From: Candidatus Methanomethylicaceae archaeon | GTDB lineage: Archaea; Thermoproteota; Methanomethylicia; Methanomethylicales; Methanomethylicaceae | Length of the DNA: 64,000 nucleotides | NCBI GenBank assembly: GCA_026414165.1 | Contig: JAOAJN010000006.1 | Location: forward strand, 31,350-95,349 | Direction: 5' to 3' | Part shown: piece after piece, positions 6,695-16,138 of the stretch | Numbering within the stretch: the stretch's first letter is position 1 | How the letters are laid out: each line of letters starts with the position of its first letter | Translations under genes and position numbers: made by a program | Notes under the pieces: generated by a model | What the model saw: only the letters and a program-made list of their open reading frames with translations | Told to the model about the DNA's origin: nothing | The model's database searches: none

Positions 6695-9562
6695 ATGGAT
6701 GAAATTCTCTCATACTTCTCAAAGCCGATTCAGAGGTTGTTAGAGGAGAGAGGGTTTGGAAAGTTCACCGAGCCTCAGAGGAGGGCTATACCGACCATCC
6801 TTAAAGGAAGTAACGTTTTAATAATTGCGCCCACTGGAACGGGCAAGACCGAGGCGGCCTTCCTGCCAATCTTGGACAAGATAGTCAGGGAGGGAGGAAG
6901 AGGAGGCATAAGGGTACTTTACATAACACCATTGAGGGCGTTGAACAGAGACCTTATGGAAAGGTTACAATGGTGGTGCAGCAGGCTGGACCTGAGGGTG
7001 GCTGTGAGGCACGGGGATACAGAGACTAAGGAGAGAGGTAAGCAGGCGATGGCGCCTCCAGATGTTTTGATAACTACTCCCGAGACACTTCAAGCAATTC
7101 TCCCCGGAAGGAGGCTTAGAAAACACCTCTCCAAGGTGAGGTGGGTGATAGTTGACGAGGTGCATGAGTTAACAAACGACAAGAGGGGTAGTCAGCTTTC
7201 GGTCGGGCTGGAGAGGTTGAGGAGGATAACTGAGGCAGAGCCTCAGATAATCGGGCTCTCCGCAACAATAGGATCCCCCGAAGAGGTTGCCAAGTTCTTG
7301 GTCGGCGTAGGAAGGGACTGTGAAATTGTGAGGGTCTCGGTGGCAAAGGACATGGAGTTAGAGGTGGACATGCCAGAGGCGGACGAAGAAGACGTGAGGT
7401 TGGCGGAGAAGATAGCAACCTTCCCCGAGGTCGCAGCGAGGCTGAGGAGGATAAGGGATCTGGTGGAGAGGTATAGGTCCACGCTGATCTTTACTAATAC
7501 CAGGTCTGAGGCCGAGATCCTTGCCAGCAGGTTCAGGGTTTGGGATATGAACATGCCAGTTAGCATACACCACGGTAGCCTGGCAAAATCCTCAAGGGTC
7601 GAGGCGGAGACAAGTCTCAAGAAGGGGGAGTTGAAGGGCGTGGTTTGTACTTCATCCTTGGAGCTAGGAATCGACATCGGAAGCGTCGATCTTGTGGTTC
7701 AGTACAATTCCCCGAGGCAGGTGACCAGACTCCTCCAAAGAGTGGGGAGGGCGGGACATTGGGTTGGTGGAACCTCGAAGGGGGCAATTATTACTATGGA
7801 CTCGGATGACGCGCTTGAGTCCTTGGTAATAGTCAAGCGTAGCCTTAGAGAAGAGTTGGAAGAAGTGAAGATAATTCGAAAACCCCTAGATGTACTAGTC
7901 CACCAGATAGCAGGCTTGTTGCTGGAATACGGCAGACTCACCGTTGATGAGATTATGGAGATCGTCAGAAGCGCTTACCCATTCCAAGACCTAACTGAGG
8001 AGGAGCTCAAAGAGGTGCTTAAATACATGAGTGAGAGGAGACCGAGGCTCGCTCTCTACGTGCCAGAGGAGGGCGTTGTGATCAAGACGAGACCTTACGA
8101 GAGCATCTTCAGGTACTATTTTGAAAACCTCTCAATGATACCTGAGGAGAAACACTACCTAGTAATTGATGAGGAGAAGGATGAGCCCATAGGTACGCTG
8201 GACGAGGCTTTTGTGGCAGAATATGGTGAGCCAGGAGTGAAGTTTATAGTTAGGGGATCGCCATGGAAGATTGTCCAAATCTACAAAGATGTGGTTTATG
8301 TTAGGGCGGAGGAGGATCCAACAGGTGCTATACCTGATTGGGTGGGAGACGAGATACCCGTGCCCTTCGAAGTGGCACAGGAAGTAGGTAGGATAAAGGG
8401 GAGAGTATGCGAGCTTTTGAGAGTTGGCACACCATTTGAGGATTTGGTCCAAGAGCTCAGGAAGGAGTATCCCGTATCGAGAGAGTTGCTGACCAAGGCG
8501 CTGACAGAAGTAAAGGAGCAAGCTGAAGGTATATGGGAAGTTCCGACTGACAGACTTATCACGGTGGAGGGGTGGGAAGGATACGTAATAGTGAGTTGTT
8601 CCCTAGGGCTCATGATAAACAAGACGCTCTCGAGAGTGCTGGCTTATTTGATCACCATAAGGACTGGGAGCGGTGTTGGGGCTTCTCAGGATCCCTACAG
8701 GATCTACCTGAAGACTTCGGTTGATGTGGATATTGTGGCAGAGGTATTGAAAAGCCTCGATCCAAAAGATGTTGCCAGGCTGGCTGAAGTGTCCGTAGAG
8801 AAGACGGGACTTTTCAGGAGGCGGCTGCTCCATGTGGCAAAGAGGTTCGGCGTTGTAGAGAAGGGGGCCGATCTTAGCGAGATGGGTATGCAGCAACTGG
8901 TGGAAAGTATGAAGGGAACTGTGATATGGAGAGAGGCGATGAAGGAGGTCTTATTCAAGGATCTGGATGTTGAAGGGCTAGAAAGGTTTGCAAGGGGTCT
9001 GAAGGATGGGATCTTCAAGGTCGTCGTTATGGAGAGAGACCTGCCTTTATCACCAATATCGAGAGTCGGCATAAGGAAGTTGAGCTGGAAGACAGACCTA
9101 GTTCCAGCGGACCGGTTGAGGAGGATCTTAATAGAGGCTGGAAAGGCCAGACTTCTGAACGAGGCAAGGGTCGCAGTTTGCTCAGAGTGCTTCAGGTACG
9201 TGGAGAATGTGAAGATCAAGAGGTTTTTGGGGGATTTTGTCTGTCCAGAGTGTGGGTCCAAGAAGATAGGTTTAGTGGATGGAGATCTCCTAGAAGTAGC
9301 ACAGATGGTGTCAGAGAGGGCGGAGAGAGGCAAAGTCTCTGACAAATTCAAAGAGATTTATAAGACAGTACTGGAGAGTGGAGAGCTTATAGGGATCTAT
9401 GGGCTGCCAGCGGCCCTTGTGTTGGCAGCCAAAGGACTCTCTAAGACTGCAATTGTGACGCTAGCATCCTCAAAGACACCAGACATCGATTTCCTCGTAG
9501 ATATGATCCTGAGGGAGGAGAGGGAAGTACTAAGAAAGAGATACAGAAGAACGCACCCATAA
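6695..9562 (+). CDS. lhr: Lhr-type large DEAD/DEAH helicase
   Basis: APTGTGKTEAAFLP, DEVHEL, SATIGSPEEVA, QRVGRAGHWVGGTSKG; C-terminal Zn motif CSECFRYV...CPECGSKK. Confidence 0.92.
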   Translation: MDEILSYFSKPIQRLLEERGFGKFTEPQRRAIPTILKGSNVLIIAPTGTGKTEAAFLPILDKIVREGGRGGIRVLYITPLRALNRDLMERLQWWCSRLDLRVAVRHGDTETKERGKQAMAPPDVLITTPETLQAILPGRRLRKHLSKVRWVIVDEVHELTNDKRGSQLSVGLERLRRITEAEPQIIGLSATIGSPEEVAKFLVGVGRDCEIVRVSVAKDMELEVDMPEADEEDVRLAEKIATFPEVAARLRRIRDLVERYRSTLIFTNTRSEAEILASRFRVWDMNMPVSIHHGSLAKSSRVEAETSLKKGELKGVVCTSSLELGIDIGSVDLVVQYNSPRQVTRLLQRVGRAGHWVGGTSKGAIITMDSDDALESLVIVKRSLREELEEVKIIRKPLDVLVHQIAGLLLEYGRLTVDEIMEIVRSAYPFQDLTEEELKEVLKYMSERRPRLALYVPEEGVVIKTRPYESIFRYYFENLSMIPEEKHYLVIDEEKDEPIGTLDEAFVAEYGEPGVKFIVRGSPWKIVQIYKDVVYVRAEEDPTGAIPDWVGDEIPVPFEVAQEVGRIKGRVCELLRVGTPFEDLVQELRKEYPVSRELLTKALTEVKEQAEGIWEVPTDRLITVEGWEGYVIVSCSLGLMINKTLSRVLAYLITIRTGSGVGASQDPYRIYLKTSVDVDIVAEVLKSLDPKDVARLAEVSVEKTGLFRRRLLHVAKRFGVVEKGADLSEMGMQQLVESMKGTVIWREAMKEVLFKDLDVEGLERFARGLKDGIFKVVVMERDLPLSPISRVGIRKLSWKTDLVPADRLRRILIEAGKARLLNEARVAVCSECFRYVENVKIKRFLGDFVCPECGSKKIGLVDGDLLEVAQMVSERAERGKVSDKFKEIYKTVLESGELIGIYGLPAALVLAAKGLSKTAIVTLASSKTPDIDFLVDMILREEREVLRKRYRRTHP

Positions 9563-10405: not shown

Positions 10406-10975
10406 CTAAAGCTGTTGAGTCTGAGAAGATCCCGCAATAATGCTGACTAAGGTTTTAAGGTCTATCTCGGCGCGAGTCCTCCATCCAATGTAGAGGTTGC
10501 CCTCCTCATCCTCGTCCAAATACCCCTTCCTTATAAACCTGTTGAGGTCTTGGTCGACCTTCCAGTCTGGGAATTTCTCCCTCAGAAGGCCCTCAACCTC
10601 ATTCCTTGTAGCCCTGCCCTGCTTTGAAGTTATATAAGCCAATGCTGCCGCCAATACGGCAAGTGTGTCTATCCTCCAGCCTGAAAGCGAGACCTCGCCG
10701 ATCTGAAGTGGGGACCTGCAGATAACATAGAAGCGAGCCTGCTCAAGATCCTCCTCTGTGGGAGTTTGGTGGTCTATACCGTCCTCATATACGATCTTTA
10801 TCTCCAGCCCTAGCTCATCTAAACGCCTCTCCAGAAGCTTTATTATCTTCATGTAATCCTTGCCCAATACCTTCCTCAGCTCCCACCCCTTAGCACCTGG
10901 TAGGCGGTGATGTTGAAAGAGAAGGAGCTGGGCAGCCTTCTTGAGCTTTCTTGATATGGTGACGTCCTCACTCAT
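10406..10975 (-). CDS. MAGE/Nse3-like winged-helix KITE protein (putative SMC subcomplex subunit)
   Basis: GWRIDTLAVLAAALAYITSKQGRATRNEVEGLLREKF...LNRFIRKGYLDEDEEGNLYIGWRTRAEID resembles the MAGE homology pattern (LLxxVLAxIxxxGNRAxExE...YLEYR..Y.FLWGPRAxxE); last gene of the SMC cassette. Confidence 0.6.
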   Translation of the reverse strand: MSEDVTISRKLKKAAQLLLFQHHRLPGAKGWELRKVLGKDYMKIIKLLERRLDELGLEIKIVYEDGIDHQTPTEEDLEQARFYVICRSPLQIGEVSLSGWRIDTLAVLAAALAYITSKQGRATRNEVEGLLREKFPDWKVDQDLNRFIRKGYLDEDEEGNLYIGWRTRAEIDLKTLVSIIAGSSQTQQL

Positions 10976-11837
10976 TTCTTATCCCTTCAGTTTTTATGCT
11001 ATTTTTCATCGTCATCCATTTCTCATAGGTTATGGAGATGGGCACGGATTTGCCTCCCTTCCTTTGCGTCTGCTTTCCCGCGGTCTCGATCATAATACTC
11101 TCCTCCACAGGGTTGATGATGAGGTTGGCATAGCCGTTCGATATGATGAAGCTTAGTGCGTATGCCCTCAACAGCGTCTCCTCATAGGTATCCCTGATCA
11201 CGAACTTCCAGTAATCAATGGGTCCTCCCTTTGACTCGTAATCTTTAGTCAATTCTTCTTGAAGTCTCCTAACCTCTTCATTGAAAGCGCGCTCAGAAAG
11301 GAATTTCAATCTGATGAGTTCCGAGACCGCCAAGGTCTTTTCCTCTGGGAACTGGGCTGCCTCGATTTCCTTCATTCTCTGGGAAAGCGGGAGGAGCACC
11401 CTCCAGTAATCCAAAGCCTCTAAGAGTCTCTTTGGGGTCAGTTGCTCGGCGGCAATCAAAGGTCTCCAAGCGGCAAGAAGGGCGGATGCAAGCTCTTCCT
11501 TACCTAGGAGCTTTATCTTGACTTCTACGAGGAACGGATCAATAAAGAGTCCTGAGGCACGCCTCTTCACCCAGTCACTCTGAAGTTTTACCATTAAAGA
11601 GAGCTCCTTTAGAGCCTCGGCGTCCATGAGTAGCTCATCGAGAAGCTTCCACTGAGGCAAGAGCCTCTTGAGTACCTGTAACTTTTGGGGAACGTCCACA
11701 AGGAATGGATCCTCCCCTTTGGCCCTTATGCTCTGACACAAGTTTATTATGCGGGCGAGTTCCTCGTAGTACTCTTCTTTACGCGCTCGCTGTGGCAGCT
11801 TTGGCCACCTCCGATCTTCCGTGCACATTTTGGACAA
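10968..11837 (-). CDS. Probable kleisin-like subunit of an SMC complex
   Basis: Helical protein whose C-terminus (TLLRAYALSFIISNGYANLIINPVEESIMIE) resembles a kleisin C-terminal winged helix; sits between the SMC and KITE genes, overlapping both; N-terminal start uncertain. Confidence 0.45.
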   Translation of the reverse strand: MSKMCTEDRRWPKLPQRARKEEYYEELARIINLCQSIRAKGEDPFLVDVPQKLQVLKRLLPQWKLLDELLMDAEALKELSLMVKLQSDWVKRRASGLFIDPFLVEVKIKLLGKEELASALLAAWRPLIAAEQLTPKRLLEALDYWRVLLPLSQRMKEIEAAQFPEEKTLAVSELIRLKFLSERAFNEEVRRLQEELTKDYESKGGPIDYWKFVIRDTYEETLLRAYALSFIISNGYANLIINPVEESIMIETAGKQTQRKGGKSVPISITYEKWMTMKNSIKTEGIRNE

Positions 11838-13542
11838 ATATTATGTTCGCGAACTCGCCGACCGCGCTGAGCTGACTCGGGGTGATCACTATAAACTGCA
11901 CATCTGAACTGTCATTCATGAAGGAGAAGAGCATCCTCATCATCGACTCCCTGTTGTGCGGATCCATATGCACATCGAACTCGTCGACGGCCCTCACCGG
12001 TGATTTCAGGTGATCCTGCAATGCCAGAAGGAAGGCCATGGTTGCCACAGCCCTCTCCCCTCCGCTCTGAGAATAAGCATCCAATAGTACAGGCGATGTG
12101 CCCCGAAATCCAACCGTGATCTCCACCCCGGCCCTGTCTGGGTCGTCCATATTCAGTAGACGTATGGCGCCAGTTCCGCCGACCCTTCCCAAGACAGAAC
12201 GGTATGTCGGGTTGATATCGTCTATGAGCTTTTCCATTACTCCTCTCCAGACCCTCTTCCTCTCCTCCAACTCTTCGATGGTTTTCCGCCTATTCTCACC
12301 TACGACCTGAGCCTTCTGCTTCAACTCGTTGTAGGTTTTCAAGTAGGTTTGGTACATGGAGGGGGCATCCTCGGGGACGTCGCCAAGGGATAGCAGATGA
12401 GCATTCACAAACTTTATCTCGTCGGAGATCTCCAAGATTGTCCTACTGGTCTCGATCCTTTCACCTGCCTTATCCTTGAACTTCTCGGACTCTGTCAGAG
12501 ATGCCTTGGCCTCCTGCAAAGAATTTTGCAATTCCTTTAGCTCCCTCTCGAGTTCGCCCTTGCGGTAGCGCATCACCGCCTCATCCACCCTCAGCTCTAC
12601 ATACCTCTTGACAACCTCGTCAAGTCGCTCGTCTACTAGTCCCAGCTCCTTCAGTTCCGCTTCTCCTTTCTTGACATCCAGAAGTATGTTCCTGAACTTT
12701 TCCTTCAATAACAGATAATCTCCCCAGAGGTCTTTCGCCTCCTCGCTCTTTGTGCGGATCCCCTTCTCTATCGCCTCGAGCTGGGACGACTTGAGGCGGA
12801 TCTTCTCCTCGATCTGTGATACCGCACGCTCATTCTTCAATATCTGGGCCCATATCAATTCCCTCTCAAGGTAGGCCTTCCTCTCTAGTAGGGACTTCTT
12901 CTCGTTATACTTGTCGTTTAGCTCCTTCCAGTATGCCAAGGTTTGCTCGGCACTGGTAAGAAGCTGTGATGTAGCCTCCTCCTCACCCAGTATCCTGTTG
13001 AGCCTCTCCTCAGACTCGTAAATGGCGCGCCTATACTGGGAGAAGCCAACCGCCTCCTCCACCATCTTGAGTTTCTCTTCAGGTGAGGTAATAGCGAACT
13101 CTTCTATCATATTTTGGTGCATTATTATGAGCATGTTATCGGGGTTCATCCCAACACTCTTAAAGAGTCTATTCACATCAAATTTGCTAGCTTGCCTGCC
13201 ATTTATCTCAAACCAGTAGGCACCATCCCTCTTCAGATACCTCGAGACCGAGATAATGTCGTTGTTTATGTAGGGGACGGGGCGCTTTCCATTTTCTGCT
13301 CTGTTATCCAGCAACAGAGTGACCCTGGCAGTTTCCTTGCCCCTTCGGATGAGGTCTGCCAACTTCCTAGAACGCTCGGTGTAGCTTTGTCCTGTTGCCA
13401 CGGATATCGCGATTAGTATTGATGACTTTCCAGCACCGTTGGGACCGCAAATCAGATTGAGTCCGCGTCTGAGGGGCACCCTAGCGTACTCATAAGACAT
13501 GAAGTTCTCCAGTACCACCTCGAGTATTGTGAGAGAGCTCAT
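11779..13542 (-). CDS. SMC-like ATPase with Smc5/6-type head motifs, short arms
   Basis: Walker A CGPNGAGKSSILIAI; MIIMHQNMIEEFAITSPEEKLKMVEEAVG; signature/Walker B SQSGGERAVATMAFLLALQDHLKSPVRAVDEFDVHMDPHNR; about 250 residues of coiled coil between head halves. Confidence 0.88.
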   Translation of the reverse strand: MSSLTILEVVLENFMSYEYARVPLRRGLNLICGPNGAGKSSILIAISVATGQSYTERSRKLADLIRRGKETARVTLLLDNRAENGKRPVPYINNDIISVSRYLKRDGAYWFEINGRQASKFDVNRLFKSVGMNPDNMLIIMHQNMIEEFAITSPEEKLKMVEEAVGFSQYRRAIYESEERLNRILGEEEATSQLLTSAEQTLAYWKELNDKYNEKKSLLERKAYLERELIWAQILKNERAVSQIEEKIRLKSSQLEAIEKGIRTKSEEAKDLWGDYLLLKEKFRNILLDVKKGEAELKELGLVDERLDEVVKRYVELRVDEAVMRYRKGELERELKELQNSLQEAKASLTESEKFKDKAGERIETSRTILEISDEIKFVNAHLLSLGDVPEDAPSMYQTYLKTYNELKQKAQVVGENRRKTIEELEERKRVWRGVMEKLIDDINPTYRSVLGRVGGTGAIRLLNMDDPDRAGVEITVGFRGTSPVLLDAYSQSGGERAVATMAFLLALQDHLKSPVRAVDEFDVHMDPHNRESMMRMLFSFMNDSSDVQFIVITPSQLSAVGEFANIIFVQNVHGRSEVAKAATASA

Positions 13543-13799
13543 ATCGGGGACCCCTCAGGGCGCCTCAAATTCCACAGAAGACCCTTATAAGCATCACTTT
13601 CACCCTTTATAGGTCGACTCCTTGAAGTTTTGTGATGTGAGAGTATTCAAATGCGTATAGATTGTATATCGTGATTATTATTAAAATTTTTTACTTATAT
13701 AATTTCAATATTAATTTAATATTTTCTTTTACTGACAAAAAGTCGAGTAAAGTTTATGTAACGAGATTCATTTTAAATTGGTGTTCATGGCGATCTTGG

Positions 13800-15338
13800 A
13801 TGGCGAGCATCGAGATAAAACAGCTTATACATAATGGAGTCCTCATACCTGTTTACAAGCCCGTAGGATTCAAGATAAAATTCAGGGGAGAGGAAATCTT
13901 ACTTACCCCAGAGCAGGAAGAGATGGCGGTGGCTTGGGTTAAGAAGCTATCTACAGATTACGTGAAAGATAAGGTGTTCGTTAGAAATTTCTTCAAGGAT
14001 TTCGGAAAAGCATTAGGTATAAAGGGCAAGATCCAACCTGAAGATTTTGATTTCTCGGAGATAATCGCTTGGTTGGAGAGGGAGAAGGCAAGAAAAGAGG
14101 CTATGAGTAAAGAGGAGAAGAAGGCGCTGGCACAGGAGAGAAAGAGGATAAGAGAAGAGAACAAGAAAAAGTATGGATTTGCAATTGTGAATGGAATGCC
14201 GATGGAGATCTCTAATTATATGGTAGAACCGGCCTGCATTTTCATGGGTAGAGGAGATCACCCCCTTAGAGGCAGATGGAAGCCAGGGGTTAAACCGGAG
14301 GACATAACCCTGAACCTCTCTCCGGACGCGAAGGTGCCTGATCCACCGAATGGGGGGTCTTGGAAGTCTGTTGTATTCGACCCGACCTCGCTCTGGATCG
14401 CCAGCTGGAGAGACAAGCTCAGGGGCAAGATGAAGTATGTATGGCTCTCTGATACAGCGTACATAAAACAAGTAAGGGATATTGAGAAGTTCAACAAGGC
14501 ATGGGAACTGGAAAAAATAATCGATAAGGTCAGGGAGCACATAAAAAGGGGTTTAGAGTCGCACGATCTGCTAGAGAGAAAGATCGCTACAGTATGCTAC
14601 CTCATTGATGAACTGAAACTCAGGGTCGGCGATGAGAAGGACGAGGATGAGGCAGACACTGTTGGCGCGACGACCCTCAGACCAGAACATCTGAAATTCA
14701 ACCCGGACGGTACAATAACTTTTGACTTCCTCGGTAAAGACTCAGTTCGATGGGTCAGCACTATCAACCCACCTGAGGTCGTCTATAGGAATCTAAAGGA
14801 GTTCATAGCAGAAGGAAACGAGACCATATTTAACGGTGTGAGATCTCAGAAGGTAAACGCTTACCTAGCCGAAGTTATGCCTGGACTGACTGCCAAGGTT
14901 TTCAGAACCTACCATGCATCCACAACCGCAAAGAGGGCACTCCAAAGTGCCGATGTCAAAAAAGATGATCCTTTATACGTCAAGAAGTACTATGCGACCA
15001 TGGCGAATTTGGAGGCTGCCAAGGTTTGTAACCACAAGAGAAAACTGCCCAAGAATTGGGAGGAGAGCCTCAGGAAGAAGATTGAAAGGTTGAAGGCGCT
15101 AAGGGAGAAGAATGCCAAAAAGGAGAAGATAGAAGAACTCAAACTCAAGATCAATGCGATGAAAGCGACGAGAGATTACAACTTAAACACCTCCCTGAAG
15201 AACTACATTGATCCTAGGGTCTATGCAGACTGGGGGAGGAGGATAGATTTTGACTGGAAGCTCTACTATTCGAAATCCCTCCAGAGAAGGTTTGCGTGGG
15301 TGGACGGGGGAGACCTCGGAGCAGGGTCAATTTTTTAA
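13800..15338 (+). CDS. DNA topoisomerase IB (eukaryote-type)
   Basis: In-frame ATG at 13800 starts the conserved region MASIEIKQLIHNGVLIPVYKP; PGLTAKVFRTYHASTTA; C-terminal catalytic-region sequence TSLKNYIDPRVYADWGRRIDFDWKLYYSKSLQRRFAW. The ORF-track start 13662 adds an AT-rich, probably untranslated leader. Confidence 0.93.
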   Translation: MASIEIKQLIHNGVLIPVYKPVGFKIKFRGEEILLTPEQEEMAVAWVKKLSTDYVKDKVFVRNFFKDFGKALGIKGKIQPEDFDFSEIIAWLEREKARKEAMSKEEKKALAQERKRIREENKKKYGFAIVNGMPMEISNYMVEPACIFMGRGDHPLRGRWKPGVKPEDITLNLSPDAKVPDPPNGGSWKSVVFDPTSLWIASWRDKLRGKMKYVWLSDTAYIKQVRDIEKFNKAWELEKIIDKVREHIKRGLESHDLLERKIATVCYLIDELKLRVGDEKDEDEADTVGATTLRPEHLKFNPDGTITFDFLGKDSVRWVSTINPPEVVYRNLKEFIAEGNETIFNGVRSQKVNAYLAEVMPGLTAKVFRTYHASTTAKRALQSADVKKDDPLYVKKYYATMANLEAAKVCNHKRKLPKNWEESLRKKIERLKALREKNAKKEKIEELKLKINAMKATRDYNLNTSLKNYIDPRVYADWGRRIDFDWKLYYSKSLQRRFAWVDGGDLGAGSIF

Positions 15339-15454: not shown

Positions 15455-16138
15455 ATGGTCCTTGCAGGGAAGGTCTTCAAGATTAAAGAGGATGTGGACC
15501 TAGCAACGATCTCGGGAAAGCTGAAGGGATACCGACAGGAGGAGGAATTCACGCATGGGGATGAAAAGATTACACTTGTTACAGAGATAGGAGATCTCGT
15601 TTTGGGCTCAGACTACCTTGAGGGGACTTTTTTCCAAGATGTTCCGTTTACCGTACGGCATAGGGGCGGAGAAAGGCTCGTGGTCAAGACTTTGGAGGCA
15701 CCATTCCTGTTTCAGGTCGATAGGGAAAGAATTTTGCTCATTATTCTCGAGAAGAAGAGAACTGCAAACAACATAGCAAATCAGCTGAGCAAGATATTAT
15801 TCATCTCTGCGGGGAGCATCGTCGAAGCAAAGATCCCACCCGAGACGCTCAGAAAATTTCATGAAGCGAACCCGGAGGACACGAAGGTCATATTCTTTGA
15901 CGGTGTGGATATACCAAATGTGGATAAACTCTCGCTTTATGGATCTCAGCTCGCCGACACTGCGCTGTACAATGAGTACCTGACCCACGGAACCATATGG
16001 TATATCGTATTCAAGTCAAGGAAATATAGTATAGTTGCAGGAGTGACTAGAAACTCGGTTGTAACGGCATTCAGCGAGGTCAAGCCGAAGGATTTCCTTG
16101 ACTACATCAGAGATGAGATCTTCCCTCTCATCGAGTGA
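15455..16138 (+). CDS. Hypothetical protein downstream of topoisomerase IB
   Basis: 227-aa ORF with normal composition; no family recognised. Confidence 0.7.
   Translation: MVLAGKVFKIKEDVDLATISGKLKGYRQEEEFTHGDEKITLVTEIGDLVLGSDYLEGTFFQDVPFTVRHRGGERLVVKTLEAPFLFQVDRERILLIILEKKRTANNIANQLSKILFISAGSIVEAKIPPETLRKFHEANPEDTKVIFFDGVDIPNVDKLSLYGSQLADTALYNEYLTHGTIWYIVFKSRKYSIVAGVTRNSVVTAFSEVKPKDFLDYIRDEIFPLIE

Follow-up and report, generated by a model that had tools for sequence, protein, structure and literature searches.

An archaeal Smc5/6-type ATPase without a recognisable hinge is encoded together with an Nse4-like kleisin and a predicted Nse3/MAGE-like KITE protein

Three adjoining genes of an archaeon from Candidatus Methanomethylicia encode an SMC ATPase, a kleisin and a KITE protein, and the best explanation is that their products very likely assemble into an Smc5/6-type complex of SMC, kleisin and KITE that is self-contained. 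The genes are located on the minus strand of a 64,000-nucleotide stretch of DNA, called the window here, that belongs to a metagenome-assembled genome (MAG) of 1.19 Mb and 86% completeness. The closest relatives of the ATPase are found in Candidatus Methanomethylicota / Methanomethylicales MAGs (95% and 93%). The cassette consists of the following genes, with positions counted along the window:

11779-13542, minus strand: gene 1, SMC ATPase of the Smc5/6 type, 587 aa, hinge-less and short-armed
10968-11837, minus strand: gene 2, Nse4-like kleisin of at most 289 aa, with an uncertain start
10406-10975, minus strand: gene 3, Nse3/MAGE-like KITE subunit with tandem winged helices, 189 aa

A sequence-only reading of this DNA had described three minus-strand genes with overlaps of 59 bp and 8 bp, and the open reading frames are present as described; the ATPase head sequence that it quoted, SQSGGERAVATMAFLLALQDHLKSPVRAVDEFDVHMDPHNR followed by QFIVITPSQL, occurs verbatim in gene 1. 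All three reading frames are conserved at 26-95% identity across 42-43 aligned members each, in the same order and on the same strand, which excludes chance open reading frames. The 59-bp overlap between genes 1 and 2 derives from a TTG start that was assigned to gene 2 mechanically. The family alignment reveals that the start of gene 2 differs among relatives, so the first ~20 residues of the kleisin and the 59-bp overlap are uncertain.

The gene 1 protein matches the Pfam family SMC_N (5e-34) and features the Walker A, signature and Walker B motifs of a split ABC ATPase head of the SMC type. In an alignment of 42 family members these motifs are conserved as follows:

13423-13446, minus strand: Walker A, GPNGAGKS, residues 33-40, invariant except A37
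12052-12069, minus strand: ABC signature, QSGGER, residues 492-497, Q492-E496 invariant
11947-12000, minus strand: Walker B and D-loop, PVRAVDEFDVHMDPHNRE, residues 515-532, with P515, R517, D520, E521, D523, H525, D527, P528 and N530-E532 invariant

A search of the PDB with the single gene 1 sequence placed yeast Smc5 at the top (8e-29), and prokaryotic Smc (3e-26) ranked between the Smc5 and Smc6 entries. When the 42-member profile was used, yeast and human Smc6 (193-189 bits) and Smc5 (185-153 bits) scored above all other proteins, followed by prokaryotic Smc (136), Smc2 (124), Smc1 (113), Smc4 (111), Smc3 (101) and Rad50 (42). The best NCBIfam model was SMC_prok_A at 196 bits, against a family cut-off of 729, and the RecN and Rad50 profiles also match the head. 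W231, a family-invariant residue in the coil, aligns with tryptophans of yeast and human Smc6. The ATPase had been read as Smc5/6-like from its head motifs, and the searches agree, with Smc5 and Smc6 preferred over RecF, RecN, Rad50 and the other SMC proteins.

Phylogenetic trees computed without Smc1-4 and human Smc5, with the eukaryotic sequences taken from PDB alignments, point the same way. The tree of the heads with the adjoining coil separates the archaeal proteins and Smc5/6 from canonical archaeal SMC and Rad50 with a support of 99.7/100, and a heads-only tree under a mixture model gives the same split (100/98). The ATPase trees feature long branches, and a grouping of canonical SMC with the archaeal proteins was not rejected by an AU test (p 0.163). 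By scores and by these trees the ATPase groups with Smc5 and Smc6. The heads-only tree does not firmly settle if Smc5/6 branches within the archaeal clade or next to it, and for this reason the suggestion of the sequence-only reading that the protein reflects a homodimeric ancestor of Smc5/6 is compatible with the data and goes no further than that.

The architecture of the ATPase, which the sequence-only reading had missed, is that of an SMC protein with short arms and with neither a recognisable hinge nor a zinc hook, as judged from profile searches and alignment. The SMC_hinge family (PF06470) was matched neither by the gene 1 protein nor in any Methanomethylicia genome searched; the same search was positive in 11 more distant relatives and in 10 of 14 controls. 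A CxxC zinc hook was found in 0 of the 42 family members. Proteins of the family are ~580-680 aa long, and the region between the head halves measures ~250 residues in the window protein and ~285-330 in other lineages. Strong length variation in the 42-member alignment is confined to one block in the middle of this region, as expected for a coiled-coil hairpin with a variable tip, and this variable-length centre leaves no room for a conserved hinge. The arms are estimated at ~120-150 residues, which would correspond to ~18-22 nm if each helical residue adds 0.15 nm. Members in which a central loop was found have, for example, 120/133, 145/151 and 147/157 residues on each side, which lends weak support to this estimate. 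The family keeps a joint motif, LGxVPED; location of the arm tip by proline and glycine density was rejected, as it mostly picked this joint near the head.

Gene 2 encodes a kleisin of the Nse4 type. A 42-member profile searched against the PDB matched human NSE4B/EID3 (9e-6) and yeast Nse4 (9e-5 to 2.5e-4); Nse4 proteins were the only matches with E < 0.001 and were aligned to the C-terminal half. The next match was the N-terminal domain of ScpA (0.024, profile positions 9-76), and the ScpA family PF02616 itself is not matched by the gene 2 protein. Pfam Nse4_C matches 37 of the 42 members (best 1.5e-7); the window kleisin alone falls under the cut-off of this family (19 vs 26 bits). The structure model of the kleisin is of moderate quality (pLDDT 77, pTM 0.42), and a Foldseek search with it ranked Nse4 first (3e-4) and the C-terminal winged helix of ScpA in complex with an Smc head next; kleisins of cohesin and condensin were among the matches that followed. 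The protein combines the C-terminal winged helix of a kleisin with an N-terminal helical domain, the latter assigned from the model and the weak ScpA match. These results bear out the earlier view of the middle gene, which had been based on its kleisin-like end.

For the gene 3 protein the likeness to MAGE is weak by sequence and comes mainly from the predicted fold. Pfam MAGE matches 7 of the 43 KITE members (best 2.8e-4) and SMC_Nse1 matches two. The KITE profile gave nothing significant against PDB sequences, so the fold was predicted instead. The AlphaFold2 model (mean pLDDT 87.5, pTM 0.79) features two winged-helix-like units, and the top four Foldseek matches are Nse1-Nse3-Nse4 and MAGE-G1/NSE1 chains (E 1e-5 to 9e-4), followed by other KITE proteins, namely MukE, yeast Nse1/3/4 chains and JetB. 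Model and Foldseek search together suggest a tandem winged-helix partner of the KITE class, and the MAGE/Nse3 pattern noted earlier in the last gene is recovered at the level of the fold.

The three genes are linked well beyond the window. They occur in order and on one strand at 58 of 80 loci from named genomes, and most of the remaining 22 loci are contig ends or belong to ANME-1. Conserved synteny in relatives had been named as a check on the cassette, and the three-gene order is kept across many lineages. In a set of 61 related genomes, the genes for the kleisin and KITE proteins have an identical distribution, with one copy of each in 38 genomes and always with the SMC; the cassette SMC occurs in 39, which are these 38 and one genome where the SMC runs off the contig (G019). 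The ANME-1 genomes contain the kleisin-KITE pair in 8 of 9 cases, adjoining the SMC in one and apart from it in 7. This co-occurrence outlasts the loss of the operon, which argues for a common function. With one SMC, one kleisin and one KITE copy per genome, the Smc5-Smc6 and Nse1-Nse3 heterodimers have no counterpart here. The three homologies and the conserved operon sustain the earlier proposal of an Smc5/6-type set with one protein of each kind.

The relation of the cassette to canonical SMC was surveyed in 397 genomes of the phylum, all at least 90% complete except the source genome. The kleisin was found in 150 and a hinge-bearing SMC in 204; 93 genomes contain both, 57 the kleisin only, 111 the hinge only and 136 neither. 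The 93 genomes with both indicate that the cassette is a lineage separate from the hinge-bearing SMC. The 57 cassette-only genomes are an upper bound, as some long SMC proteins evade the hinge profile. Two of these were found in G047 (L157, 1316-4780, 1154 aa) and G054 (L167, 1067-4444, 1125 aa), where the long SMC genes adjoin ScpA-like genes; the absence of PF06470 alone overstates the loss of canonical SMC. The Methanomethylicia genomes searched gave no match to ScpA (PF02616), and an ATPase search in the family of the window recovered only Rad50-sized proteins besides the cassette. Methanomethylicia have no detectable canonical SMC-ScpA, and the cassette is the only SMC complex detected in them besides Rad50. 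In three genomes of the same class and their relatives (G026, G030 and G032; families f3 and f6; 93-96% complete), the searches detected no cassette, no hinge-bearing SMC and no ScpA, and these organisms may have no SMC complex except Rad50. In one genome of the survey, G350, the kleisin is matched at full length twice (C1:446890-447687 and C1:955449-956243), and the cassette may be duplicated there.

The genes that surround the cassette include the following:

15455-16138, plus strand: X227, an uncharacterised, strongly conserved 227-aa protein, candidate fourth component
13662-15338, plus strand: DNA topoisomerase IB, eukaryotic-type (Topoisom_I, E 7e-70)
6695-9562, plus strand: helicase of the Lhr family, in convergent orientation to the KITE gene

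Of 39 genomes with the cassette, 37 encode X227, vs 2 of the 22 genomes without the cassette (Fisher p 8e-12, without a correction for kinship), and the protein is a candidate fourth component of the complex. X227 neighbours the cassette upstream and in divergent orientation at 48 of the 80 loci, and at 15 of these the distance is within 350 bp. In several genomes it lies on another contig or far from the cassette. Profile searches of Pfam, NCBIfam and the PDB gave no convincing match for it. In one genome that has no cassette (G043), X227 is located slightly downstream of Mre11-Rad50. The topoisomerase IB gene stands between X227 and the SMC gene only in Methanomethylicia among the loci fetched. 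About half of the full loci have an Lhr homologue close to the cassette, and in many loci it follows the KITE gene in convergent orientation.

Several other readings of the cassette have to be weighed, and the Smc-ScpAB, Wadjet and Rad50/RecN readings were rejected on scores. In the first of these, the cassette would be a canonical prokaryotic condensin (Smc-ScpAB) that has diverged and lost its hinge, with a superficial resemblance to Smc5/6; this reading agrees with SMC_prok_A as the best NCBIfam model, with the weakly ScpA-like N-terminus of the kleisin, with the ScpA C-terminal winged helix among the fold matches and with the indecisive AU test. It is improbable, since the SMC_prok_A score is far under its cut-off, the head profile favours Smc5/6 over prokaryotic SMC by ~50 bits, the kleisin matches Nse4 and not the ScpA family, the fold of the KITE protein is nearer to Nse3/MAGE than to ScpB, and the cassette kleisin co-occurs with a hinge-bearing SMC in the 93 genomes described above.

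A defence system of the Wadjet or Lamassu type, with the ATPase as an SMC-like sensor, is less probable again. Both systems have been found in archaea (PMC10586767), the head fold is common to defence ATPases, and PADLOC matched the ATPase to mad3, AriA, LmuB and, weakly, JetC. PADLOC gave no match for the kleisin, the KITE protein or X227, so that JetA and JetB partners were not recognised, and neither JetD nor another effector nuclease was recognised beside the cassette. The cassette is single-copy in nearly all genomes of the family of the window and has conserved housekeeping neighbours, which is unlike a defence island. There is least to be said for a repair ATPase akin to Rad50 or RecN that has two winged-helix proteins of unrelated origin as partners: the arms are short like those of RecN and the head is matched by the RecN and Rad50 profiles, but Rad50 reaches 42 bits vs 193 for Smc6, relatives in the same family encode a separate Rad50, and Rad50 and RecN have neither of the partners found here, a kleisin and a KITE protein.

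The preferred reading, a self-contained Smc5/6-type complex, suggests a mechanism. Closure of the heads as a sandwich around ATP, bridging of neck and head by the kleisin and attachment of a KITE dimer to the kleisin are established for Smc-ScpAB and Smc5/6. In the archaeal complex the single SMC protein would form a homodimer whose two heads close on two ATP, and one kleisin would join this dimer asymmetrically, with its N-terminal helical domain at the neck of one SMC, its C-terminal winged helix at the other head and its middle segment carrying a dimer of the single KITE protein. Lacking a hinge, the far end of the ring would be without its usual closing domain; the arms may be open there or joined through another contact. 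The parts and the absent hinge favour an ATP-gated clamp or a short-step translocator. A short-armed device of this kind, in which engaged heads, KITE dimer and kleisin would hold the DNA between them, would be the most likely form of action. Its role may be in chromosome organisation and repair, and in Methanomethylicia, where no SMC complex other than this one and Rad50 was detected, it probably takes over the job of condensin too. A wider proposal, somewhat short of an even chance, is that the cassette and X227 form an ancient four-part hinge-less archaeal machine, ancestral or sister to eukaryotic Smc5/6, that organises chromosomes with a ring not closed by a hinge and, in some archaea, has taken the place of condensin entirely.

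Of the eukaryotic SMC complexes, Smc5/6 is understood least. If the archaeal trio forms as proposed, its matching kleisin and KITE protein would mean that this branch was already a whole complex in archaea; whether Smc5/6 represents a KITE-bearing branch separate from cohesin and condensin since its origin was left open by Wells et al. (PMC5228436). It would also qualify the view of archaeal SMC complexes as KITE-less, as Jeon et al. described archaeal Smc-ScpA complexes that generally have no working KITE (PMC7055376). The cassette is a natural case in which to test if SMC action on DNA requires a hinge and long arms at all, and a complex of 587, 289 and 189 residues would, if formed, be a simple biochemical system.

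The sequence-only reading had left the novelty of the cassette to the literature. The clade of the ATPase has been published before: Yoshinaga and colleagues describe archaeal 'SMC5/6-related' proteins, with 21 sequences in one alignment, in a 2022 text (PMC9389158) that does not mention kleisins and treats the hinge only in general terms. The archaeal SMC of Yoshinaga and Inagaki (2021), compared through its description in PMC9389158, is very probably the same ATPase clade, as it too is archaeal and groups with Smc5 and Smc6, and as cited there the work concerns the ATPase. No description of archaeal Nse4 or Nse3, or of Asgard SMC-kleisin partners, was found in a search that left the 2021 paper and preprints outside. 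The same search gave no report of the kleisin and KITE partners of the clade or of its hinge-less form.

Among known systems, RecN, Rad50 and ClsN/ASRP share with the cassette a short or hinge-less ATPase of the SMC superfamily; unlike them, the cassette has no zinc hook, includes a kleisin and a KITE protein, and scores much lower against RecN and Rad50. MukBEF and Wadjet JetABCD follow the same SMC-kleisin-KITE plan, and MukE and JetB provide the next-best KITE fold matches, but the archaeal SMC has no hinge, its kleisin and KITE protein have no PADLOC match, and no JetD-like effector was seen. Bacterial Smc-ScpAB also has one gene each for SMC, kleisin and KITE, with the same expected 2:1:2 stoichiometry, but its sequence families differ, and its SMC features arms of ~50 nm and a hinge. 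Eukaryotic Smc5/6 is built on Smc5, Smc6, Nse4, Nse1 and Nse3, whereas the cassette contains one SMC gene and one KITE gene, an SMC without a hinge and with far shorter arms, and a KITE protein without a RING domain; Nse2, Nse5 and Nse6 were not seen beside the archaeal operon, to which this comparison is confined. What the cassette shares with eukaryotic Smc5/6 is the absence of HEAT (Hawk) subunits, as judged from its three genes, the lineage of the head ATPase and the Nse4-type kleisin; the predicted fold of its KITE protein is nearest to Nse1, Nse3 and MAGE, with a weak match by sequence.
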